IMG/VR virus record: IMGVR_UViG_3300037258_000186
Coordinates: 1 to 40,270 of that record
Strand: one strand, 5' to 3'
Length of the DNA stretch: 40,270 bases
Source: a virus
Of this stretch, positions 14,703 to 29,304 are shown piece by piece. A program made the position numbers and the translations under genes. Positions within the stretch are counted from its first letter, which is position 1; every line of letters starts with the position of its first letter. The notes under the pieces are model-generated. The model ran no database searches, was not told the DNA's origin, and worked only from the letters and a program-made list of their open reading frames with translations.

Positions 14703-15599
14703 ATGGCAAGTCAGAGTCAGACCGACAGCAGTATCGAAACAATCAACCAGGACAACGAGGAGCTGTCGAGTGATCTGGCGCAGTCGGACAATGCAAAGCT
14801 GGCCAGCCTCCTCGCGCCGTCGACCACGACCACCACGGCTCCGGCCAAGGATCAGCGCGTCACCTTGACCCACCCCAAGGAGGAGGAGGCGGCCGCCAAG
14901 GGGGAGGAGCAAAAGAAGGCAGCGGCGGCCAAGTCGGCGGCCGCCCAGAAGGCCCTGCAGGCGCAGATCCAAGCGGTGCAGGACTCTCCGTGGACCCAGC
15001 TCTCGAATGGCCTCGTCAACCAGTACAAGACGGCCGAGACGCCGACCGCGGCGGCCATCTCTGGCACCGCGACCCCGACCGCGCAGGAAGGCGCGGCGAA
15101 CAGCGCCCTCTCGTCCCTCGGCTTGAGCTCGAGCTCGCCGGCGGGATCCTGGCTCACGGCGCAGACCCAGGCGGCTCAGCAGACCGCCGCGCCTGTGTCG
15201 CAGGCGATGGCCCAAGAAGGTGCTCAGTACCAGGCCGAGGAGCAGCCGATTGAGAATGCCCTGGCGGCCGGCGGGGAGGCCAATGCCCTCGCCGTGAACA
15301 CGGCGCCAGAGGCGTCTTGGGTGCAGGCCCTGGCCAGCCATGTCCAGTCGAACCTCTCCTTGTACGGCACGGTCCCCACGGCTGCCCTGAGTTCCCTGTC
15401 GCCCGCCGTGGCCGAGGCGCTCAAACTCTCTGGTGGCTACCCCGGATCGTCCGCTGCCGGGACCACGCAGATACAGAACATCGGCCCATCGGCCACCGGC
15501 GGATCCAAAGTCGACGTTCCCTCGAGCGCGAGCTCGGCATTGGCTAGCGCGGGGTCGACGGGCTCGGTTCCCGCACCCAGCCCCGCGCCCGGCGGCTAA
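14703..15599 (+). CDS. Ala/Gln-rich protein, probable internal or ejection protein
   Basis: A 298-residue protein. ATG 14703 has GGAGG at 14694-14698. An N-terminal polar segment is followed by a Lys/Glu/Ala-rich helix (LTHPKEEEAAAKGEEQKKAA, then AKSAAAQKALQAQIQAVQD), then Ala, Ser and Thr-rich helical and linker sequence. The stop overlaps the giant virion gene (TAATG at 15597-15601). With the previous gene and the next one it forms a three-gene set that resembles the internal-core or ejection module of short-tailed phages. No enzymatic motif seen. Confidence 0.65.
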   Translation: MASQSQTDSSIETINQDNEELSSDLAQSDNAKLASLLAPSTTTTTAPAKDQRVTLTHPKEEEAAAKGEEQKKAAAAKSAAAQKALQAQIQAVQDSPWTQLSNGLVNQYKTAETPTAAAISGTATPTAQEGAANSALSSLGLSSSSPAGSWLTAQTQAAQQTAAPVSQAMAQEGAQYQAEEQPIENALAAGGEANALAVNTAPEASWVQALASHVQSNLSLYGTVPTAALSSLSPAVAEALKLSGGYPGSSAAGTTQIQNIGPSATGGSKVDVPSSASSALASAGSTGSVPAPSPAPGG

Positions 15600-18500
15600 T
15601 GGCTCGAGCACCCAAGTCCGGGCAGCAGACGTTCGACTCGGAGTGGCAGAAGGCCGTCGCCTGGGCGCAGTCGAACGGAATCGGTGCCAACTCCTACCTC
15701 CCCGTGTACCAGCTCGACCTGACCCGCCTGCAGAATGGCGAGTACCCGATGGGGGCGGCCGAGCGGAACCTGGCGATCATGGCCGCGCACAATCCCAACC
15801 AGGTTGTCAGCGCCCCCCAGGACAACCCGACCGGATCCCTCAACCCGAAAAGCATCATGACGAACGCGGTGTCCGACGCCGGCAAGATCGCCACCGGCAT
15901 CGCCGGCATCTTCACGGGCTCCTTCGAGAAGCAAGTGTGGGACAGCGCCAAGGCGACGTACAAGGCGGTCGACCATCCTGCCACTCAGATGTTCCACGGC
16001 ACGGGATCCCAGGCCGGCATCAACTCGTTCATGGGGACGATCGGCAACTGGCTCAACAACACGCTGCTGGCCTACGCCCCGGGGGCGGCCGACATCGGCA
16101 CCGTCCTGCAGACCGACGCCGCGACCCACTATGGCAACGGTGTCAGCCCGCTCTCTGACCCGGGCACCAAGAAGCTCCTCGAACATCCTCTGGTGTCGGT
16201 GCTCGACCTGATTCCCGGTGAGGGTGGCGTGGCGACCAAGGTGGCCGATCGGGTGGGCGCCACAGGCGTCGCGGCATCCCTCGCAGCTCGAGGTGGTGAC
16301 AGGTCGGCCGCCGGTGAGATCGCGCACCAGATCGGTTCGGTGAGCACCGGAGGCAAGCCTGGCGTCACGCTGCACGGTGATCTGGTGGCCAAGCTGTCGG
16401 TCAAGGACCGCATTGAGAAGATGGCGGGCCGCCTGGGCCCGGGTGGTGCCGGCGTAGGCCCAGCGATGGGTAACCTCGCCGAGGCGATCGACCAGGCCGG
16501 CGCCATGACGTCGCAGATGTACACCTGGCTGCTCGACGCCCCCTCGACGGCGCTCCGTGCCCTCGGGCCCGAGGACGTCTCCGCGCTCAAGAAGGTGCTC
16601 GACACCCGGCGGACCACCGGGGGCGACTCGGTCCGCGAGGCCCTCAAGGATCCAACGTTTTCGCCGGCGGCTCGAGATGTCCTGCAGATGTGGGTGAACG
16701 GGCCCCTGCGCTTCGCCACCGAGGCCGAACTATTCGCTGGCAACCTCCGGCCGATCGTCAGCCTCAACGGAGACGTGGGCATGTGGGCCACAGCGGGCAA
16801 GGGTGTGCGCAAGGTGCTGGCAGCCTCCAACGCCCGCAGAGCGGCTCAGCGGGCGGCCGTGGAGAGCCTGGACGCCCTCGAGCCCCATGTGGACCGGCTC
16901 AAGGCCCTCGACGCCATGCGGACTCAGGCCAGCGGTGCGTTTCAGAGCCGGCTGCAGGCGGCCCGTCAGCAGGTGTTCCAAGACCCTGAGCTGCAGCGGC
17001 CCTTGACCCAGGAGGTGTCGGATCCGTCGCGCTTCCGCCAGGCCCGGTCGCTCTCGAGGACAGAGCAGCTCCATGCCGTCGTTGGCGAGGGTGGTATCGC
17101 CGACCAGTTCCTCGAGCAAATCGCTAAGAGCTCAGATCCCGACCTGATCGGCACCCTGGCCCAGGCGATGAAGGAACGTTTGCGGGCATGGGGCCCCAAG
17201 TCGGTGAACGCCGCGGAGCACCCGGCGCTCCAAGCCCTGTACTCGGCCGCCGACGATTTCGACCGCTGGGCGAAGCTGTACCACAAGGAGCAGCGCGAGA
17301 TCGACAAGGCCGTCTATGGCGAGGAGAAGGCCGCCGCGCATCACCTCGAGCTGCAGAAGCGGTTCCGGGCCCAGCGGGTGCAAGTGCTCAAGGACCGCCA
17401 GACTAAGGAACGTGACGAGCTCCTCTCTCGCTACCAGATGGGCAAGCGCCAGCGCACAGCGAAACTCGGCAAGATGATTCAGGACACGACCGAGCGGCGG
17501 ATCTGGCACACCGAGATGGTGCGCACCCAAGGTGACGCCGAGGCCCGCCGCGCCACCAAGCAGGTGCTCGAGGGGCAGATCATGCCGCGAGTACGCCAGA
17601 AAGAGCGCGATTTCAAGGACGCATCCGCCAAGTCGATCAAAGAGGCCACGCGCAAGCTGCAAGATGAGAACAAACTCGAGTACACCAAGTTCGAGCGCGA
17701 CCGATCCAAGATGTCACGCCGGCACGCCGACGAGCTCCGCAAGGAGCAGCGCGAACAGCGTGTCGTGACGAAGGGCATGGGCGAGGTGCTCGCCGACTCG
17801 GTCCGCTATGGCGATGCGATCCGCGCTTTCCACGACGCTGTGATGGACAACCCTGCCGACCAGTACCGAGACGTCTTTGTCGCCCTGATTCAAAAGCACA
17901 TCAAGGAGAGCGAGGAGACGGCCGCGCTCACGGTGGCCACCGATCGCTACCTCAAGACACTGCCGGGCATGACAGCGAAGCGGCTCGCCAAGATCCGTGA
18001 GAATCCTGACGTTGTCAACGAGCTCACAATGGCGCACTTCCACGAGATCATGAATCAGCCTGATCTCTCGCCACAGGTGGCCGAAGATGCCAAGGCCGAG
18101 ATGGAGGAGTACCGCACCACGGCCCATGAGGAGCTCAAGCTGCTTATCGGCCAGGGGCTCAAGGTGCCCTACATCCCGAGCGCCACCAGCTTTGACGAGA
18201 CGCTCGGGCGCGACTCAATGGCGCCCCTCATCGGCCACGGGATCCCCAAGCCCGACATGGCCAAAGAGAAGGTGTGGGAACTCACCCCGCACAAGGACGA
18301 TTTCGCCCTCGGCATCAACAAGGCAGTGGTGCAGGCACTGCAGCGCGACAGCACCATCTACCTCGCCGAGCACTACCTCAAGCCCATGACGCTCACCCAA
18401 GAGGCCGTGAACGGGTTCTTGTGGGTGTTCAAAGCACCAGAGATGCGCGAGGCCGGCGGCAACATCCCCCATGAGCTGCAGTCGCAGATGGCCAAGGATC

Positions 18501-20029
18501 TCGGCCTAGAGAAGTTCGACCCCAAGGGCATGTTCGGCTTCCAACTGCCGCGGTGGTCCCAGGCCGAGAACCTCTATCTGCCCAAGTCGATCGTCGGCGC
18601 GCTCAAGGAGTTCGAGAAGCAACGGCGCAAGAGTCTCCTGGGCAAGTCGAACAAGGTGTTCCGTTACAGCATCCTCGGCCTCTCGCCGCGCTACACCGCG
18701 CACATCATCTTCGGCGGTTCGATGATGTTGGCTCTGCGCTCGACGCCCTACGCGGTGACCATGATTGGAGACGCTGCTCGAGCTCTGCGCGACGGCACGC
18801 TGCCCCGGGACGTCTTTAGCGGGCGCGAGACAGAGCTCGGTTTCCAAGAGCCGATCAACCTGGTCAATCGTGAGATGGGCAAGGACATGATCAACGGCCT
18901 GGCTGTGCCCGAGCACATCGAGACACGCCAGCAAGTAAAGATGGCGGCCGCCAAGCCGATCCACGTTCTGCGCGCGCTGGCCGACATCAACTTTCGCTTC
19001 ACCCATTACATCCGCGACATGCAGGCTGCCGTGGCCTATCTCGACGGTGCCGGCAAGGTCGACCGCCGCGGGGGCCGGGTGACGGTGGAGGATCCCGAGA
19101 CGGGCAAGAACATCGACGTCAGCTCAGAGCGCGCGGTCAAAGAGGGAATCCATCACGTTCAAGAGGTGTTCGGCAACCTCAAGCGCATGTCGCCGGTGGA
19201 GCGCCAGATCGCGCAGACGGTCATGCCCTTCTACGGGTGGCAGAAACACATCTTGGGCTACGTGATGTCGTTCCCCTTCGACCACCCCTACCGGGCCCTG
19301 GTGCTCTCCCAGCTTGCGTTCCACAGCTCCCAGGACGTCCCCCTCGGTTGGCCCATCCGCATGCAACTCCTCATGTTCATGGGCTCACCCGATGGCCAGG
19401 GCAACGTCAACGCCATCGACATGCGATCCCTCGACCCGTTCCGAGACGTGGCCAACTACGCGACCTGGACCGGCGTGTTCGAGTCGCTCAACCCGGCCCT
19501 GTCGGCCCCCCTGGCAGCCGCGTTCGGGCCCCAGGCCATCTATGGCTCGAGCTCGCTGTACCCAGGCGTCACGTACAACGCGTTCTACGGCATCGAGACG
19601 TCGACCAGCGGGGGGTCATGGATCAACGCCCTCGAGCAGTGGGTGCCTCAGGCCGGCGCCGCGGTGTCAGCAGCCCAGGCGGCTGGCGGGATCCGCTCGG
19701 AGTGGCAGACCGACAAGAGCTCGGCCGTGAAGTCTCTCCTCGAGTCGCTCAACGTGCCATTCGTCACCCCGCCGGTGAACCTCAAACAGATCGCGGCCAA
19801 GGACGAGGACGCGCGGTTTGAGACAGCCAAGAATGTCGCCTATGACGCTTTCTCGTCGGGCAACTTCGCCACCCTCGCTGGATACAAGACGGTGCCCAAC
19901 CCGCTCAACACTGCATACGAGATCACCCCGCAGGCCCTCGAGGCGCTCTACAGGCAGTCTCAGCAGGCCAATCCCGGTGTGGCACCCATCGAGGCCCTTC
20001 TGCCACCTCAGACGCCCTACGGCTGGTGA
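15599..20029 (+). CDS. Giant virion protein, probable DNA ejection protein
   Basis: The largest gene: 1,476 residues. The N-terminal 250 residues are mixed. Residues about 540-740 form a long charged coiled coil with many Lys, Glu and Arg heptads (HHLELQKRFRAQRVQVLKDR, then KSIKEATRKLQDENKLEYTK). Residues about 1010-1070 and 1190-1300 are more hydrophobic, with candidate membrane-interacting helices (FRYSILGLSPRYTAHIIFGG, then TVMPFYGWQKHILGYVMSF). No lytic transglycosylase or peptidase motif was found by eye. A tape measure is unlikely because no tail-tube or chaperone genes are present. An ejection protein that spans the envelope is the best reading; alternatives remain open. Confidence 0.7.
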   Translation: MARAPKSGQQTFDSEWQKAVAWAQSNGIGANSYLPVYQLDLTRLQNGEYPMGAAERNLAIMAAHNPNQVVSAPQDNPTGSLNPKSIMTNAVSDAGKIATGIAGIFTGSFEKQVWDSAKATYKAVDHPATQMFHGTGSQAGINSFMGTIGNWLNNTLLAYAPGAADIGTVLQTDAATHYGNGVSPLSDPGTKKLLEHPLVSVLDLIPGEGGVATKVADRVGATGVAASLAARGGDRSAAGEIAHQIGSVSTGGKPGVTLHGDLVAKLSVKDRIEKMAGRLGPGGAGVGPAMGNLAEAIDQAGAMTSQMYTWLLDAPSTALRALGPEDVSALKKVLDTRRTTGGDSVREALKDPTFSPAARDVLQMWVNGPLRFATEAELFAGNLRPIVSLNGDVGMWATAGKGVRKVLAASNARRAAQRAAVESLDALEPHVDRLKALDAMRTQASGAFQSRLQAARQQVFQDPELQRPLTQEVSDPSRFRQARSLSRTEQLHAVVGEGGIADQFLEQIAKSSDPDLIGTLAQAMKERLRAWGPKSVNAAEHPALQALYSAADDFDRWAKLYHKEQREIDKAVYGEEKAAAHHLELQKRFRAQRVQVLKDRQTKERDELLSRYQMGKRQRTAKLGKMIQDTTERRIWHTEMVRTQGDAEARRATKQVLEGQIMPRVRQKERDFKDASAKSIKEATRKLQDENKLEYTKFERDRSKMSRRHADELRKEQREQRVVTKGMGEVLADSVRYGDAIRAFHDAVMDNPADQYRDVFVALIQKHIKESEETAALTVATDRYLKTLPGMTAKRLAKIRENPDVVNELTMAHFHEIMNQPDLSPQVAEDAKAEMEEYRTTAHEELKLLIGQGLKVPYIPSATSFDETLGRDSMAPLIGHGIPKPDMAKEKVWELTPHKDDFALGINKAVVQALQRDSTIYLAEHYLKPMTLTQEAVNGFLWVFKAPEMREAGGNIPHELQSQMAKDLGLEKFDPKGMFGFQLPRWSQAENLYLPKSIVGALKEFEKQRRKSLLGKSNKVFRYSILGLSPRYTAHIIFGGSMMLALRSTPYAVTMIGDAARALRDGTLPRDVFSGRETELGFQEPINLVNREMGKDMINGLAVPEHIETRQQVKMAAAKPIHVLRALADINFRFTHYIRDMQAAVAYLDGAGKVDRRGGRVTVEDPETGKNIDVSSERAVKEGIHHVQEVFGNLKRMSPVERQIAQTVMPFYGWQKHILGYVMSFPFDHPYRALVLSQLAFHSSQDVPLGWPIRMQLLMFMGSPDGQGNVNAIDMRSLDPFRDVANYATWTGVFESLNPALSAPLAAAFGPQAIYGSSSLYPGVTYNAFYGIETSTSGGSWINALEQWVPQAGAAVSAAQAAGGIRSEWQTDKSSAVKSLLESLNVPFVTPPVNLKQIAAKDEDARFETAKNVAYDAFSSGNFATLAGYKTVPNPLNTAYEITPQALEALYRQSQQANPGVAPIEALLPPQTPYGW

Positions 20030-22566: not shown

Positions 22567-23799
22567 ATGGGTGTCGGTGGCGCTGAGGTAGGTCCCGGCG
22601 TCAGTCCGCCCGACACGGGCGGCGGTGGCGGCGGATCGGGCACGGTCACGTCTGTCTCGGTCAACAGTGCTAACGGCTTTGCGGGCACGGTCGCCAACTC
22701 GACCACGACCCCGGCCATCACGATCTCAACGACGATCACCGGGATCCTCAAGGGCAACGGCACAGCCATCTCCGCGGCGACACCTGGCACCGACTATCCG
22801 GCCACGGGCGTCATTACTGCCGGTGGTCCAACGGGCAGTGGCACGGCTGTGCCTGTCATCACGTACAACGCCAACGGACAGCTCACTGTCGTCACCACGA
22901 CGGCAACGGTCGGCACGGTGGCGGTGGGCGGTGGTGGTTCGCTCGTTCTCGGCGGAACGGCTACGGCACCATCGCTTACTCGGGCCGCTCTTACTGGTGA
23001 CGTCACAGCCTCCGCCGACTCGAACGCGACCACTCTTGTCGCCACGGCGGGTGTTGAGGCCATCATCAGAGCGCAGGGAGTTGGTGCTCCGGTTGTCTTT
23101 ACAGCAGGTGGTACATGGACCCCATCAACGTCGGGACTACAAATCTTTGCCGCCCTCGTTGTTGGTGGAGGCGGCGGAGGTGCGGCAGGGAACACAGGTG
23201 CGAGTAGTGGAGGAGGTGGAGGAGGTGGCGGTGAGGTGCTTCCGTTCTTCTATCTCGGCAACGTCACAACTCCCCAAACTGTCACCATCGGCGCTGGCGG
23301 TGCAGCGGGATCGGTCGGGAGTGCGACGTCCATAGGGTCTCTTGTCACTGCGGCTGGCGGTGGTGCTGGCTCTACTTTTTTTGGTATCGCCGGGAATGGT
23401 GGCGACGCAGGCCCTTCTCAATCAAACGGACAGGGACTTGGTAGTTCGGGTGGTGCGGGCAATAGCACTAGTAGCACGGGCGGGCGTGGGGGATCAGGCA
23501 TCGAACGTTACGGCGCTGGTGGTGGTGGTGGTGGTGGCCCGACTTCGGCAGCGGGAGGCGCAGGTGGTAGCTCAGGGGGGGGCGCAGGTGGGACTGGCGC
23601 ATCTCTTGGCGGCGGCGGCGGTGGTGCTGGTGGTATCGGTGCGAGCGCCGGTCAAAACGGTACGGCGGGCCAAGGTGGTCATGGTGGTGCTGCTGCGGCC
23701 AACACTGGTGGTGGTGGTGGTGGGGGTGGTTGCGGTACTGCGGCTGGTGCGGGTGCTGCAGGTGGTTCGGGATACGTCATCATCTTCCAACTGGCCTAA
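22567..23799 (+). CDS. Tail fibre with glycine-rich tip and shared N-terminal tag
   Basis: A 410-residue fibre. It begins MGVGGAEVGPGVSPP, a peptide shared with the proteins at 24996 and 25425. Residues about 27-80 hold a fibre repeat (GTVTSVSVNSANGFAGTVAN, then TTTPAITIS and ILKGNGTAISAATPGTDY). From about 165 the protein turns into a Gly-rich domain with a conserved core (FTAGGTWTPSTSGLQIFAAL, then VTTPQTVTIGAGG) and poly-Gly loops, ending in GSGYVIIFQLA. This is the glycine-rich adhesin type used by phages to bind hosts. It ends abutting the hydrolase gene. GC content is lower here than in the structural genes, a usual sign of exchanged host-range modules. Confidence 0.8.
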   Translation: MGVGGAEVGPGVSPPDTGGGGGGSGTVTSVSVNSANGFAGTVANSTTTPAITISTTITGILKGNGTAISAATPGTDYPATGVITAGGPTGSGTAVPVITYNANGQLTVVTTTATVGTVAVGGGGSLVLGGTATAPSLTRAALTGDVTASADSNATTLVATAGVEAIIRAQGVGAPVVFTAGGTWTPSTSGLQIFAALVVGGGGGGAAGNTGASSGGGGGGGGEVLPFFYLGNVTTPQTVTIGAGGAAGSVGSATSIGSLVTAAGGGAGSTFFGIAGNGGDAGPSQSNGQGLGSSGGAGNSTSSTGGRGGSGIERYGAGGGGGGGPTSAAGGAGGSSGGGAGGTGASLGGGGGGAGGIGASAGQNGTAGQGGHGGAAAANTGGGGGGGGCGTAAGAGAAGGSGYVIIFQLA

Positions 23800-24996
23800 A
23801 TGGCGGACCACTGCAATGACCCATCTTCACGGGGAGCGTGGCAACTCAGTAGTCCCCATATCCCGTCCATAGGTCAGTTGCTAGTTCCTACGGGTGGCTT
23901 TGGATCGTCCAACATTCGTGGCGTTGCGATACTCGGCCACGGCCTAAACGAGAGTTCATCGGCTCTCGGAGTCCTTGGCGGTCTTGCTACAAACCTCCAA
24001 GCTGACGGCTGGGTCGTTTACGGTTGGCCGTATCCGGAGGACAACTTCTTTCAGGCGGGACTGAACGGTGGCGCCATCCCCAACACGGGAATAGCGCAAG
24101 ACATCAATAACGACGCTGGGAACGGCGCGCGCTACCTAACCACAAATCTTGAATCGTGGGATCACATCAAGATATGGCTGCGCACCGTCATGCCGCAGTT
24201 GCATGGTGCATCGGGCCCGCTTCTCTCTTTGCCTCTCGCCGTGTTCGGGGAGTCATGGGGCGGCTGGCACTCGATCCAGGTTGCACTCAATCGGTCATCG
24301 GACCTTGTTGCATGGGGTGCGCACGTACCTGGCGTTGTTATGTCGGCGTTCATTCCGGCCCTGACAGAACCATACAGTTACGGTGCCCAACCGGCCTACA
24401 ACAGCGGCACTACCTACCTCGCATTCCAGACGGTTAGTTTCAATGGGTTCATCTACATTGCGACTGGCACCACGACCGGCAATGCGCCCACCGGCACTGC
24501 GACCTCTAATGCCTTCTGGACCTACCTGATTGGACCGATCAACACGACCGGAGCCGACGTCAGCACGCTTCAAGGTATCGGCAACGGCAGCGGTGGCGTT
24601 CTCCCGCTATGCGTCGTCGGCTGGGCAAATCCCGACATTATTGCGGAGTCCTACCTCGTTCAGCCGTGGGCCGATACGGCGGCGGGGGGGTACTACGCGG
24701 GCCTCATGACGGAGAACGGGCCCCTGACCGAGGGACACCAGTTCTCCGCTAGCGCCGACGTGCCTTACTACACGGCGTTCTTTACTGGCTCGCTCTCCAC
24801 CAGCTACTCGGCGGGCACAACCTATGGCGCGGGGACGATGGTTACCTACAATGGCTTCATGTACTCGTCAATCGCTGGGTCGACAGGCAATGCACCATCT
24901 GGCACGGCCACCTCCAATGCGTTTTGGACGTACTTCTCAACCCCTCCGTGGTCGTCAACGTATTGCGTCGACCATCTCTGTCCCAAGGCGTTCTAA
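23800..24996 (+). CDS. Alpha/beta-hydrolase fused to two sugar-binding-like modules (candidate depolymerase or esterase)
   Basis: A 398-residue protein. Residues 40-155 follow an alpha/beta-hydrolase: strand plus oxyanion turn GVAILGHGLNESS, a helix, WVVYGWPYP, then the nucleophile elbow LAVFGESWGGW (Ser about 152 in GESWGG). Possible triad partners are Asp279 (WANPDI) and His313 (TEGHQF). Two near-identical segments, about 198-243 and 334-379 (YNSGTTYLAFQTVSFNGFIY and YSAGTTYGAGTMVTYNGFMY, each then TGNAP-GTATSNAFWTY), resemble CBM5/12 carbohydrate-binding modules. One lies between Ser and the candidate Asp, the other near the C-terminus. Placed between two tail proteins, it may be a virion enzyme that trims host surface polymers. 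Substrate unknown; the first codons follow the fibre gene stop directly. Confidence 0.7.
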   Translation: MADHCNDPSSRGAWQLSSPHIPSIGQLLVPTGGFGSSNIRGVAILGHGLNESSSALGVLGGLATNLQADGWVVYGWPYPEDNFFQAGLNGGAIPNTGIAQDINNDAGNGARYLTTNLESWDHIKIWLRTVMPQLHGASGPLLSLPLAVFGESWGGWHSIQVALNRSSDLVAWGAHVPGVVMSAFIPALTEPYSYGAQPAYNSGTTYLAFQTVSFNGFIYIATGTTTGNAPTGTATSNAFWTYLIGPINTTGADVSTLQGIGNGSGGVLPLCVVGWANPDIIAESYLVQPWADTAAGGYYAGLMTENGPLTEGHQFSASADVPYYTAFFTGSLSTSYSAGTTYGAGTMVTYNGFMYSSIAGSTGNAPSGTATSNAFWTYFSTPPWSSTYCVDHLCPKAF

Positions 24997-25415
24997 TGGG
25001 TGTCGGAGGAGCAGAGGTGGGGCCCGGTGTCTCCTCGCCGACGAGTTCGTCACTGCCAGCGGGTGCGGTCACTCAACTCGCCAAGACACCGTCAACGGGC
25101 ACAGACTTCGGGGCAGCGCAGGCCAGTTTCCTCACTTGGACAGCGCCAGACGATGGTGAGATGCACCAAGTCACGATCGCGAGCACCATCGTTGCTGGAG
25201 CAGCCGGGACAACGGGTGGACCAGTTCGGGTTCTCTACACGTCGGGCGGCCAGGGTCTGAACGTCTCGGTCAGCAGCGGGACACTCTCGGCGAATCAAGT
25301 GGCCTCGTCAACCGAATCATTGGCGGTGGACCCGAACACTGTGGTTAATCTCCAACAGGCCAGCGGACTGGTGGCAGGCGCAGCAACGATCTTCTCGTCC
25401 ATCATGGGCGCGTAA
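24996..25415 (+). CDS. Small tail protein with the shared N-terminal tag
   Basis: A 139-residue protein starting at ATG 24996, which overlaps the hydrolase stop (TAATG). It opens MGVGGAEVGPGVSSP, the tag shared with 22567 and 25425. The rest is a compact beta-rich domain (GEMHQVTIASTIVAGAAGTT, then VRVLYTSGGQGLNVSVSSG), the look of a receptor-binding or trimeric knob domain. Like its neighbours it is Ser, Thr and Ala-rich with few charges. Probably a second fibre-type component attached through the tag. Confidence 0.7.
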   Translation: MGVGGAEVGPGVSSPTSSSLPAGAVTQLAKTPSTGTDFGAAQASFLTWTAPDDGEMHQVTIASTIVAGAAGTTGGPVRVLYTSGGQGLNVSVSSGTLSANQVASSTESLAVDPNTVVNLQQASGLVAGAATIFSSIMGA

Positions 25416-25424
25416 GGAGTTCCG

Positions 25425-25973
25425 ATGGGAGTTGGCGGGGCAGAAGTCGGACCAGGGATCTCGACGCCAGCCGGTGCGGGTTCGGGCACCCTCACCGATA
25501 TCACGTCGACGGGCGGCACGGTCACCGTCTCGAACGGGACCGGGCCGGTGGTGAACCTAGAGGTGCCATACCCGGCTTTGACGGACGCAGCGGGCAGCCT
25601 CGCTTTGGACTACGACATCACGACCGCTCTCGCGACATACCTCACAACGGCCTCGCTGGCCGCTGGTACTTGGCTCATCATGCATGGCGCTTATGTCAAC
25701 TACCTTGACGCGACGGCAGCTCTTGAGTTTCAAGCGAACGAGGGGACGGCAACGGCGACTTTCGATGGTCAGAACGCAACGGAAATCGCATCCGCTACAG
25801 CAACCCTGCTTGTACCGATGAGCTTGGCGTTCCGTGCCACAATCACTGTGGCCGGAACCATCGTGTTTCAGGCCAAGGCAAGCACCATAACTGGCACACC
25901 AGTGATCCGGGCGGCGACGTCGGCGTCATCGTTCCCCAACGTCACCGGCTATACGGCGGTGCGAATCAAGTGA
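25425..25973 (+). CDS. Tail protein with the shared N-terminal tag
   Basis: A 182-residue protein; AAGGAG lies 6 bases before ATG 25425. It opens MGVGGAEVGPGISTP, then carries GTLTDITSTGGTVTVSNGTG and PVVNLEVP, the beta linker also seen in the protein at 12341. A C-terminal beta domain (about residues 60-182) includes AGTWLIMHGAYVNYLDATAA and FRATITVAGTIVFQAKAST, resembling TNF-like or knob-type receptor-binding folds of phage tips. The stop overlaps the GTG of the endolysin (GTGA at 25970). Confidence 0.7.
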   Translation: MGVGGAEVGPGISTPAGAGSGTLTDITSTGGTVTVSNGTGPVVNLEVPYPALTDAAGSLALDYDITTALATYLTTASLAAGTWLIMHGAYVNYLDATAALEFQANEGTATATFDGQNATEIASATATLLVPMSLAFRATITVAGTIVFQAKASTITGTPVIRAATSASSFPNVTGYTAVRIK

Positions 25974-26842
25974 CCATCGGCCGCGTCATCGACGTCTCGA
26001 GCGCGCAGCACCCCGGAGGTAACCCCGGCGCCGGCAAGCCGATCGACTGGTCCGCCGTGGCCAAGGCCGGCGTCACGACCGCCATCATCAAAGCCACCCA
26101 AAGCACTACCTACACAAACCCGTGGTTCCATGAGGATCTCGCCGGCGCGCTCGGCGCGGGCCTCGACGTCATGGCGTACCACTTCGCATCGTTCGGCAAT
26201 GTCCAAGCCGAGGTGAATCACTTCGTCTCCGTCGCCGGCCGCCTGGCTCAGTGCCTCGACATCGAGACGTCAGAAAACGTCGTGTGGTCCCGAACCTTCC
26301 TCCAAGCGCTGGGCAAGCCGGCCGACGAGCTCCTCGTCTACGGGTCGGCCTCGAGCCTTCGCTCCGTGTATGCACAGCTCCCGGCGCTGCCGTGGGTGGC
26401 CGCATACCAATCGCACTCGCCCGGGTGGGGTGTGCTCTGGCAGTTCACCTCGACCGGACAGATCCCGGGGATTCCCGCGGCTGTCGACCTGAGCAACTGG
26501 CAGGGTTCAGAGATCCAATATGAGACGCTGTTCGCCACCACGGCGCCACCGATAGGAGAGCTCGAGATGCTTGCACCGACCCCGCAGGGCAAAGGTTTCT
26601 GGACTATCAACGCTGCTGGCGCCATCGTCACGCACGGTGACGCGCAGTACCTCGGCGGTCCAAACACCTCGAACACCGCGCCAGCCGGCCAGCCGCCGGT
26701 GTGGAACGGTCCGCCCAACCTCATCCCTGGCCATGTGGTCGCGTCGATCACCGCGCATCCGCTCGAGCAGGGCTATTGGGTGGAGGACAACGTCGGCAAC
26801 ATCTACGCATACGGTGCGGCCGAGGACTATCCCGTCAACTAA
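25970..26842 (+). CDS. Endolysin: GH25-type muramidase with GYW-type repeats
   Basis: A 290-residue protein starting at GTG 25970, overlapping the previous stop. Residues 5-195 match glycoside hydrolase family 25: GRVIDVSSAQ (Asp8), IDWSAVAKAGVTTAIIKATQ, AYHFASFGN and CLDIET (Asp97, Glu99), where the acidic residues are the expected catalytic set for cleaving the NAM-NAG bond. Residues about 199-229 and 255-287 contain two degenerate repeats (GKGFWTINAAGAIVTHGDAQ and GYWVEDNVGNIYAYGAAEDY). Repeats of this GYW-D-GG-I-A-GDA type are abundant in Acidimicrobiia-like surface proteins, so this part probably binds the wall. No signal peptide; a holin candidate follows. Confidence 0.8.
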   Translation: MTIGRVIDVSSAQHPGGNPGAGKPIDWSAVAKAGVTTAIIKATQSTTYTNPWFHEDLAGALGAGLDVMAYHFASFGNVQAEVNHFVSVAGRLAQCLDIETSENVVWSRTFLQALGKPADELLVYGSASSLRSVYAQLPALPWVAAYQSHSPGWGVLWQFTSTGQIPGIPAAVDLSNWQGSEIQYETLFATTAPPIGELEMLAPTPQGKGFWTINAAGAIVTHGDAQYLGGPNTSNTAPAGQPPVWNGPPNLIPGHVVASITAHPLEQGYWVEDNVGNIYAYGAAEDYPVN

Positions 26843-27577: not shown

Positions 27578-28342
27578 ATGACTCTCTACAAGGTGCTGGG
27601 TCAAAAGGCTGAGTCGATCCACGGGGGTAGTGGCCGGTGGCATCGACCGCACGGCAAGCGACCTGGCAAGTGGATGGACGAGATCAAGAATCCATCGTGT
27701 TGTAAGCGCGGGTATCACCTGGTCGAGCTGTATTCGCTCGCTGAGTGGCTTCAGGCCGATGCGACGATCTACATCGCCGAGGGCCGGGGTGCATCGAATG
27801 GAGACGGATCGGGCAAGACGGCTTTCGCCCAGGCTCGGCTGATCCGTCAGGTCCACATCTCCGAGTGTGATCTGCGCCTCTTTGCCGCGGACTGTGCTGA
27901 GCATGTCCTGCCCATCTTCTCCAAAGTTCGACCCAACGATGACCGCCCGGCCAAGGCCATCGAGGCAGCACGTAAGTTCGCCAGAGGCGAGATGGGGGCC
28001 GCCGCTCGGGCCGCCGCTCGGGCCGCCGCTTGGGACGCCGCTGGGGACGCCGCTGGGGCCGCCGCTGGGGCCGCCGCTTGGGCCGCCGCTCGGGCCGCCG
28101 CTTGGGACGCCGCTCGGGCCGCCGCTGGGGCCGCCGCTCGGGCCGCCGCTCGGGCCGCCGCTCGGGCCGCCGCTGGGGCCGCCGCTGGGGCCGCCGCTTG
28201 GGCCGCCGCTGGGGACGCCGCTCGGGACGCCGCTGGGGCCGCCGCTGGGGCCGCCGCTTGGGCCGCCGCTGGGGACGCCGCTCGGGACGCCGAAAAGCAG
28301 TGGCAGGCGAACACCCTCCTCGGCTATCTCAAGGAGGCTTGA
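27578..28342 (+). CDS. Ala-repeat protein with conserved N-terminal domain
   Basis: A 254-residue protein. Residues 1-140 form a conserved domain (KNPSCCKRGYHLVELYSLAE, then CDLRLFAADCAEHVLP and DDRPAKAIEAARKFARGE). Similar N-domains with long Ala-rich C-terminal helices are widespread in phages and bacteria and resemble DUF7666-type proteins; function unknown. Residues 140-240 consist of about 25 tetrapeptide repeats of the form X-A/D-A-A with X mostly Arg, Trp or Gly, encoded by the 12-bp repeat described separately. The C-terminus is KQWQANTLLGYLKEA. First gene of the recombination operon; its stop overlaps the YqaJ start (TGATG). Confidence 0.75.
   Translation: MTLYKVLGQKAESIHGGSGRWHRPHGKRPGKWMDEIKNPSCCKRGYHLVELYSLAEWLQADATIYIAEGRGASNGDGSGKTAFAQARLIRQVHISECDLRLFAADCAEHVLPIFSKVRPNDDRPAKAIEAARKFARGEMGAAARAAARAAAWDAAGDAAGAAAGAAAWAAARAAAWDAARAAAGAAARAAARAAARAAAGAAAGAAAWAAAGDAARDAAGAAAGAAAWAAAGDAARDAEKQWQANTLLGYLKEA
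27994..28292 (+). repeat. About 25 tandem 12-bp repeats (GCCGCCGCTNGG)
   Basis: Units read GSC-GCC-GCT-NGG where N is C, T or G (Arg, Trp or Gly) and the first codon GCC is sometimes GAC (Asp). All other bases are kept, including third positions, so expansion is recent. The stretch is inside the Ala-repeat gene, and because 12 is a multiple of 3, unit gain or loss would not shift its frame. Other frames and the opposite strand are also open across it, producing long Pro-Pro-Leu-Gly and Ala-rich shadow reading frames that I do not count as genes. Confidence 0.9.
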
Positions 28343-29304
28343 TGTCGATCGAAATAGTGGCGGACCTTGAGCAGATCGAGGTCCATTCCCCGGAGTGGCA
28401 TGAGCTTCGCAAGCTCGGTGTCGGTGGATCCGATGCCGGCGCCGTCTGCGGGTTCTCGAGGTTCCGCACGCCCTACCAGGTGTGGGCCGAGAAGGTCAGC
28501 CCGGTGGTCCCCGACGAGGACGACGAGAACGAGCCGCAGCTTTGGGGCAAGCTCCTCGAGCCCGTGGTCCGTGAGGAGTTCACCCGGCGCACCGGGATTC
28601 AGGTGCACCCGTTCCCCCGCATGGTGCGCAACTCAGAGCGCCCCTACATGCTGGCCAACGTGGACGGGCTCACCGGGCCCGCTCAGTCGCTCACGGGCGC
28701 CTATGAGGGTAAGACCACCCGCCGGTCCGATCTGTGGCCTGTGGCCGACGACGGGACCGTACAGGTGCCGTTCGACAACATGGTCCAGGGCATGCACTAC
28801 CTCGCCGTGCTCGAGCTCGAGCGGATCTACTTCGCCTGCCTCGTTGGTGGCCAGACGCTGCGCATCGCCGAGGTCGAGGTCAACCCCCAACTGGTCGAGG
28901 ATCTCATCGCCATCGAGGCCGCCTTCTGGCAGTCGGTGCTGGACCGCAACCCGCCCGAGGTCTCCGCGCAGGACGTCTCGGTGCTCCGCTCGAGGTGGGA
29001 TGCCGAGGCCGGCAAGCGCATCGAGCTCTCCGGCACGCACCACACCAATCTCAAGGTCCGGGCCAAGTACAAGACACAGATCAAGGACACGCAGGAGAAG
29101 ATCGACCAGATTGACGCCGAGATCATGGCGTTCATGGGTGACGCCGAGGAAGCCGTGTTCAACGGTCAGACCGTCGTGACCTGGCGCACGGACAAGCGCG
29201 GTCGGGTCGACGGCACCGCGCTCGCCGCGGCGCACCCCGAGATTGCCGACGAGTTCCGCAAGCCGCCGGGCCGGCGGTTCCTTCCCAAGGAGATCACCGA
29301 ATGA
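28342..29304 (+). CDS. YqaJ-family viral exonuclease
   Basis: A 320-residue recombination nuclease of the YqaJ/lambda-Exo (PD-(D/E)XK) type, which chews the 5' strand of double-stranded ends to give single strands for the annealing protein encoded next. Motifs in order: GVGGSDAGAVCGFSRF (28-32 GGSDA), WGKLLEPVVREEF (Glu73), MLANVDGL (Asp108), GAYEGKTTR (Glu122 and Lys124, the E-x-K motif). Residues 240-290 form a charged coiled coil. ATG 28342 is coupled to the previous stop (TGATG) with AAGGAGG nearby. The end overlaps the RecT gene by 4 bp, as in classic SynExo pairs. Confidence 0.9.
   Translation: MSIEIVADLEQIEVHSPEWHELRKLGVGGSDAGAVCGFSRFRTPYQVWAEKVSPVVPDEDDENEPQLWGKLLEPVVREEFTRRTGIQVHPFPRMVRNSERPYMLANVDGLTGPAQSLTGAYEGKTTRRSDLWPVADDGTVQVPFDNMVQGMHYLAVLELERIYFACLVGGQTLRIAEVEVNPQLVEDLIAIEAAFWQSVLDRNPPEVSAQDVSVLRSRWDAEAGKRIELSGTHHTNLKVRAKYKTQIKDTQEKIDQIDAEIMAFMGDAEEAVFNGQTVVTWRTDKRGRVDGTALAAAHPEIADEFRKPPGRRFLPKEITE

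Follow-up and report, generated by a model that had tools for sequence, protein, structure and literature searches.

The locus studied here raises the question of what kind of enzyme would carry carbohydrate-binding modules inside its own catalytic chain, and on what such an enzyme would act. The window, i.e., the whole stretch of DNA analysed, is a virus record of 40,270 bases with terminase, portal and major head protein, and it also encodes a RecE-like exonuclease and a RecT-like protein. From the letters alone, an earlier note had described one of its ORFs as a serine alpha/beta-hydrolase with two sugar-binding modules, flanked by fibre-type genes. The following features were located in and around this ORF (L036 and L040 are related phage contigs treated below):

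22567..23799, plus strand: upstream Gly-rich fibre-like ORF of 410 aa, N-terminal MGVGGAEVGPGVS, Gly_rich_2 just below cut-off
23800..24996, plus strand: module-bearing alpha/beta-hydrolase ORF of 398 aa, ATG start at 23800, stop ending at 24996
23938..23949, plus strand: HGLN, aa 47-50, candidate oxyanion turn after predicted strand 41-46
24247..24264, plus strand: GESWGG, aa 150-155, putative nucleophile elbow between predicted strand 146-150 and helix 153-163
24253-24255, plus strand: codon of Ser152, within GESWGG
24394..24525, plus strand: module 1, CBM5/12-like, aa 199-242, inserted after predicted beta6 and ahead of the Asp strand, in the place of the cap
24634..24636, plus strand: Asp279, candidate catalytic residue (GWANPD), matching GTSD in L036 and VETGD in L040 when the inserts are omitted
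24736..24738, plus strand: His313, candidate catalytic residue (EGHQF), aligned to QGHVF and GEHEF
24802..24933, plus strand: module 2, CBM5/12-like, aa 335-378, inserted after the final helix of the core, ahead of the conserved C-terminal tail
24964..24993, plus strand: conserved C-terminal tail CVDHLCPKAF, aa 389-398 (VDPLCPAVY in L040, LDPSYPVSF in L036)
24996..25415, plus strand: downstream ORF of 139 aa, with the N-terminal peptide MGVGGAEVGPGVS as in the upstream ORF
25425..25973, plus strand: downstream ORF of 182 aa, N-terminal MGVGGAEVGPGIS
25970..26842, plus strand: GH25 endolysin (PF01183), the next recognisable gene downstream

The hydrolase gene and its two modules

The ATG at 23800 directly abuts the stop codon of the upstream ORF. 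The GC3 of the hydrolase ORF (23800-24996) is 0.68, compared with 0.88 for the head protein, 0.82 for the endolysin gene and 0.55 for the upstream Gly-rich ORF; its lower GC3 may reflect a later acquisition.

In a six-frame search, the Pfam family CBM_5_12 (PF02839) matched twice, with E values of 3.7e-5 (24805-24921) and 1.2e-4 (24394-24519). The single stretches score below the curated cut-off (20 and 18.3 bits vs 26.2) and the whole hydrolase protein scores above it (27.9 bits vs 26.2, E 2.5e-6). The two modules are identical at 27 of 44 residues (shuffle z 15.9), and 13 of these 27 residues are encoded by different codons. By the NG86 method dN is 0.34 and dS 1.44 between them, and therefore both copies look selectively kept. 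Two copies of one CBM5/12-like module, as described in the earlier note, are thus borne out, as are their positions, module 1 lying between Ser152 and Asp279 and module 2 after His313. As to their being sugar-binding, the family resemblance to CBM5/12 stands, and binding itself would be expected from that resemblance. When module 2 alone was compared with phage records, 14 matched at E <= 1 (best 0.01); they are annotated as lectin/glucanase-like, carbohydrate-binding, minor tail or hypothetical proteins, and a hydrolase is annotated in none of them. Chitin-binding members of CBM5/12 have an exposed aromatic pair on the binding face. The window modules seemingly lack this pair, and their ligand may therefore differ.

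Homologues in related phages

Relatives of the protein were not recovered by direct searches. The window protein gave no match to PDB sequences (phmmer), NCBIfam or plasmids (tblastn), and no relative in an exact-pattern scan of IMG/VR; tblastn against phages gave no match for the window, L040 or L036 proteins. A DNA pattern for GESWGGW found 23 loci in IMG/VR, none of which was homologous by blastp and phmmer beyond the window's own (L001/L002), and two pattern scans of genome contigs yielded 41 and 84 pattern matches, none of them a relative.

The homologues were reached through the major head protein, which as bait led to seven related records. One of the seven, the sibling phage record G002, which shares with the window many stretches at about 66-86% DNA identity, encodes a hydrolase homologue (E 8.2e-12, 32%); the identical protein is found on a short contig, L037. 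Further scans using the G002 homologue added L040/L043 and L044. The homologues (L036:8352-9386, L040:5211-6317 and L044:7989-8390) represent three further phage contig lineages and are 28-32% identical over the full length. With the window there are four distinct sequences, three of them complete; in L044 the contig end cuts the protein before the nucleophile. The earlier note had proposed a search for homologues, and with these lineages the architecture of the protein could be settled. A profile of the three cores matched four of the 11 related records, but two of these had served to build it and a third encodes a protein identical to one of those used, which leaves L044 as the sole independent match. 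The non-matching records are mostly short fragments, and G010 (38,132 bases, L041) is also without a match. Other baits contributed little. The 1,476-aa ORF (15599-20029), which has no PHROG match at E <= 0.1 although this region is conserved in the sibling phage, gained no relative; a putative structural ORF (568 aa) searched in phages gave nothing useful; and the conserved ORF 21496 recovered only the already known sibling.

Fold of the core and catalytic residues

None of the hydrolase cut-offs in Pfam and NCBIfam was reached by the window protein (Hydrolase_4, 15.5 bits vs 27), and the L040 protein matched seven hydrolase-type Pfam models, every one under its cut-off. A profile of the three N-terminal cores gave ten matches among PDB sequences at E <= 10, the best at 0.0067. 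By name, nine of these are proteins that we take to be alpha/beta-hydrolases (Ayg1-type, monoacylglycerol lipase, D14L, S-formylglutathione hydrolase, dienelactone hydrolase, BioH-type and thioesterases) and the tenth is a fimbrial fusion (E 0.0077). Eight of the nine span the elbow, and D14L covers profile positions 24-56 only.

The AF2 models of the window protein (mean pLDDT 31.9, 3 sequences) and of L040 (mean pLDDT 43.9, 5 rows) are of low confidence. Both appear to have the strand and helix order of alpha/beta-hydrolases, for which beta3-alphaA-beta4-alphaB-beta5-Ser-alphaC-beta6-beta7-Asp-beta8-His-alphaF was used in the comparison, and both place the nucleophile between a strand and a helix. 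The predicted elements of the L040 model are E33-38, H64-78, E81-84, H111-131, E138-142, H145-157, E161-166 and, further on, E304-309, E333-338 and H347-360. Against the PDB, Foldseek returned what are presumably alpha/beta-hydrolases, judging by their names, in 50 of the 50 matches listed for the window model (best 6.5e-4) and in 47 of the 50 listed for the L040 model (best 2.3e-3), the remaining three being CBASS Cap5. In VIA-align the best Z of the L040 model was 10.9 (131 residues, 2.9 A), and the matches mostly cover model residues 14-183 and barely compare the C-terminal half containing Asp and His; the second half of the fold therefore rests on the alignment and on low-confidence secondary structure. 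Foldseek against BFVD gave no match at E <= 0.001, and the names in the 50 matches listed include hydrolases on the one hand and chitin-binding or tail proteins on the other, with no name combining both.

The PDB profile matches, Foldseek and the order of secondary structure agree, and they support at low resolution the proposal that the core is a serine alpha/beta-hydrolase. Ser152, which the earlier note expected at a nucleophile elbow, lies in a G-x-S-x-G motif and is predicted at a strand-turn-helix in the low-confidence model.

GESWGG, HGLN, Asp279 and His313 all occur at the residues named in that note, and Ser, Asp and His follow one another along the sequence in the order usual for alpha/beta-hydrolases. 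The counterpart of the oxyanion turn is HG in L036 and SG (not HG) in L040. In the insert-free pairwise alignments, each of the three pairs of complete proteins matches at Ser and at His; Asp aligns directly between L040 and L036, and the Asp of the window protein stands in a corresponding GxxxD site that follows the equivalent predicted strand. All three positions are thus kept in three of three complete proteins (window included) at an identity of 28-32%, and because of this conservation the candidate triad is more than a chance arrangement. The residues around the nucleophile are variable (GESWGG, GGSDGG and GISLGG). This variability, together with the loops filled by modules and the lack of a close known esterase in the NCBIfam, PDB and phage searches, would suit a glycan binder of the fibre cluster which has no catalysis and keeps the hydrolase fold as a scaffold for displaying modules. 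The retention of Ser, Asp and His in all complete proteins despite so low an identity argues against this explanation, which is considered quite improbable.

Insertion of modules into the catalytic chain

In two multiple alignments (A6 and A8) the segments near Asp are out of register, since L036 and L040 carry their inserts at different core positions, and insert-free pairwise alignments (300 shuffles per pair) and a block-deletion scan were therefore relied on. When the inserts were omitted, the core alignments improved in all three pairs, with z rising from 12.0 to 15.1, from 13.5 to 16.4 and from 18.1 to 20.1. In the scan, blocks of several lengths were removed at every second position; its results are partly dependent on the preceding step, as the partners' inserts and the other window module were already out and the block lengths were near the module lengths. 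For the first insert of the window the best row was 191-234 (top eight rows, 181-242) and for the second 279-334 in module-1-free numbering, i.e., 331-386 in the protein (top eight, 331-392). For L040 and L036 the best rows were 189-276 (top eight, 177-288) and 223-302 (top eight, 221-306), respectively. In a MAFFT alignment of the full sequences, the gap that accommodates module 2 follows the final helix of the core and precedes the conserved tail. The best rows coincide with the modules, and by these sequence comparisons the modules are inserted into the catalytic chain rather than appended to it, as the earlier note had supposed. Alpha/beta-hydrolases carry a cap between beta6 and beta7, and the block-deletion and alignment positions put module 1 and the L040 insert at this common place.

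In L040 and L036 there are no CBM5/12 modules; instead, another all-beta insert of about 85 residues is present, in L040 at the same cap place as module 1 and in L036 between Asp and His. Compared with one another the two inserts give z 7.0 and are thus related, but neither is related to the CBM modules (z 2.0 and -0.9). PF02839 was found in none of the 11 related records. The candidate occurrence of the CBM module in the relatives' fibre-like ORFs was rejected, since among 1,946 ORFs only the window's own passes. For the other insert, a two-sequence profile searched against the same number of ORFs (1,946) found no fibre-like ORF with the default hmmsearch filters; with HMMER --max it matched the upstream fibre-like ORFs of L044 (1.1e-4) and L036 (1.5e-3), on sequence that is prone to low complexity. 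In pairwise comparisons of the inserts with three fibre-like ORFs, which had been picked by eye for shared motifs, z was 7.1 to 8.2 in four of six cases and 4.0 and 4.3 in the rest. There is thus moderate evidence that modules travel between the fibre gene and the hydrolase gene.

Genomic neighbourhood

The ORFs next to the hydrolase gene, called fibre-type in the earlier note, are Gly-rich or repeat-like, and the PHROGs search gave no tail annotation for any of them; this part of the earlier note is less well supported than the rest. An N-terminal peptide (MGVGGAEVGPGxS and similar) opens three otherwise different window ORFs (22567, 24996 and 25425), and a similar peptide is present on fibre-like ORFs of two relatives (L040 at about 3304 and L041 at about 4090). 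It may be a tag for virion attachment or assembly; the hydrolase itself is without the GVGGAEVGPG-type N-terminus common to its three neighbours.

Several other ORFs were noted in the cluster. In L036 the hydrolase and the fibre-like ORF are separated by a methyltransferase-like ORF (L036:7878-8351; Methyltransf_24, E 1.8e-4, under cut-off). Between hydrolase and endolysin in L040, an ORF (L040:6321-7001) with a DSD block appears glycosyltransferase-like by eye; it matches phrog_28746, a family annotated without a function, at E 0.0047 and has no Pfam match at E <= 1. In L041, a relative without the hydrolase, a 451-aa ORF (L041:5270-6622) lies between the Gly-rich fibre-like and endolysin genes; its assignment as a beta-helix tailspike was rejected as unproven, with no family matched in Pfam and PHROGs. 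At 27924-28343 of the window, a 12-base tandem repeat (24 overlapping 144-nt windows) encodes an Ala-rich four-residue repeat in ORF 27578-28342 and also opens other frames.

The proximity of the endolysin gene brings up a role in lysis, in which the esterase would be produced late, released with the GH25 endolysin and, like LysB of mycobacteriophages, cleave esters in the outer layer of the wall from within. The GH25 gene follows immediately on the hydrolase in the L036/L037 phage (L037: 28-1065, then 1067), and only one ORF in L040 and two small ORFs in the window separate the two genes. Phage D29 has LysB two genes after the endolysin. In D29 LysB, Asp and His are separated by a domain of 83 residues (PMC7022511), in a position that corresponds to that of the L036 insert. 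However, phrog_102, which D29 LysB matches at 1.2e-76, was not matched at E <= 0.1 by the window protein or its three relatives; hhalign with LysB gave a probability of 0.2%; and the inserts resemble minor-tail and fibre-like modules, which points outward. LysB is not among the PDB structure matches listed by Foldseek and VIA-align, which excludes nothing. On balance a lysis esterase is unlikely, though it deserves some weight.

The methyltransferase-like ORF of L036 and the possible glycosyltransferase recognised by eye in L040 would also be in keeping with an auxiliary gene, whose product would be an intracellular or metabolite-directed enzyme with modules of no role in adsorption. Elsewhere in phages, however, CBM5/12-like modules sit in minor tail or lectin-like proteins, and the relatives' insert is common to fibre-like ORFs; this explanation appears very improbable.

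Proposed function

The explanation preferred here, to which we would give about an even chance, is that the gene encodes a serine esterase with loop-borne recognition modules, acting on an ester-linked substituent of a host surface glycan. Ester hydrolysis is suggested by the conservation of the triad, and a surface glycan as substrate by the CBM-like and fibre-like inserts. Ser152, Asp279 and His313 would hydrolyse the substituent, most simply an O-acyl group. Cleavage of the glycan chain, as the word depolymerase in the earlier note would imply, is less to be expected of such an enzyme than removal of an ester-linked group. Module 1 in the cap loop (beta6-beta7) and module 2 before the C-terminal tail would hold the glycan over or beside the active site. 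The relatives have a fibre-related all-beta module instead, either in the cap loop or in the interval from Asp to His, and the core would accordingly behave as a scaffold with loops open to interchangeable modules for recognition. The protein would form part of the virion, probably next to the fibre proteins, and act at adsorption.

A broader and more tentative proposal, possible but doubtful at present, is that of a phage enzyme chassis with open slots, in which the core accepts glycan-binding or fibre modules at three loops (the cap loop, the Asp-His interval and the loop preceding the C-terminal tail) and exchanges them with the adjacent fibre genes, altering the specificity of a virion-borne esterase. 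If this is true, the specificity of the chassis changes by insertion into the catalytic domain and not by a swap of fibre tips.

Comparison with known systems

Cap-bearing alpha/beta-hydrolases such as monoglyceride lipase and the feruloyl/cinnamoyl esterases Est1E and LJ0536 share the predicted core fold of the window protein, and their cap has the place of module 1. These caps are small subdomains and not stand-alone binding modules. The CBM5/12 (PF02839) modules of Streptomyces and Rhizobium phage tail proteins are similar to module 2, but they occur in minor tail, lectin-like or hypothetical proteins with no annotated hydrolase.

Among phage receptor-binding enzymes, the tail-borne SGNH esterase gp63.1 of E. 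coli phage G7C takes acetyl esters off the surface polysaccharide, and the Klebsiella prophage RBPs 164_08 and 174_38 cleave p-nitrophenyl acetate in vitro, as reported in PMC13123978. The window protein would resemble them in its presumed position on the virion. They have the SGNH fold, whereas the window protein sequence is without the N-terminal GDS nucleophile block of SGNH/GDSL enzymes and has a mid-chain GxSxG elbow, and inserted CBM5/12-like modules are not mentioned for them in the portion of that source available (PMC13123978). LysB (D29 gp12) is likewise a phage alpha/beta-hydrolase esterase near the endolysin, with an in-chain domain between Asp and His, but it has no sequence family match with the window protein, and its linker domain is described as forming an acyl binding site (PMC7022511), with no CBM-like module. 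The CE20 esterases Fl8CE20_II and PpCE20_II are cellular glycan-degrading enzymes of the SGNH fold with a single kind of inserted domain, a beta-sandwich which holds the chain over the active site (PMC12313940). By analogy with CE20, the glycan chain could be kept over the active site of the window protein by module 1 in its cap loop.

Precedents exist for alpha/beta-hydrolase depolymerases as a class, for tail proteins that bear CBM5/12-like modules and for esterases into which ancillary domains are inserted. In the open literature searched, in which terms with Greek letters are poorly searchable, no phage protein of this architecture was described; by that measure, what is new is the combination, in which related phages place unlike modules in separate loops of a common core. 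Phage enzymes that modify surfaces have mainly been sought as beta-helices, propellers and SGNH esterases. The DepoScope screen included the alpha/beta-hydrolase fold, but all of its 984 fold hits belonged to four other folds, and four of the 26 benchmark depolymerases that it missed were alpha/beta-hydrolases (PMC11326577). Fold searches of this sort would overlook a family whose modules lie within the catalytic chain, and such a family would offer a tractable system for following how inserted domains change specificity in evolution.
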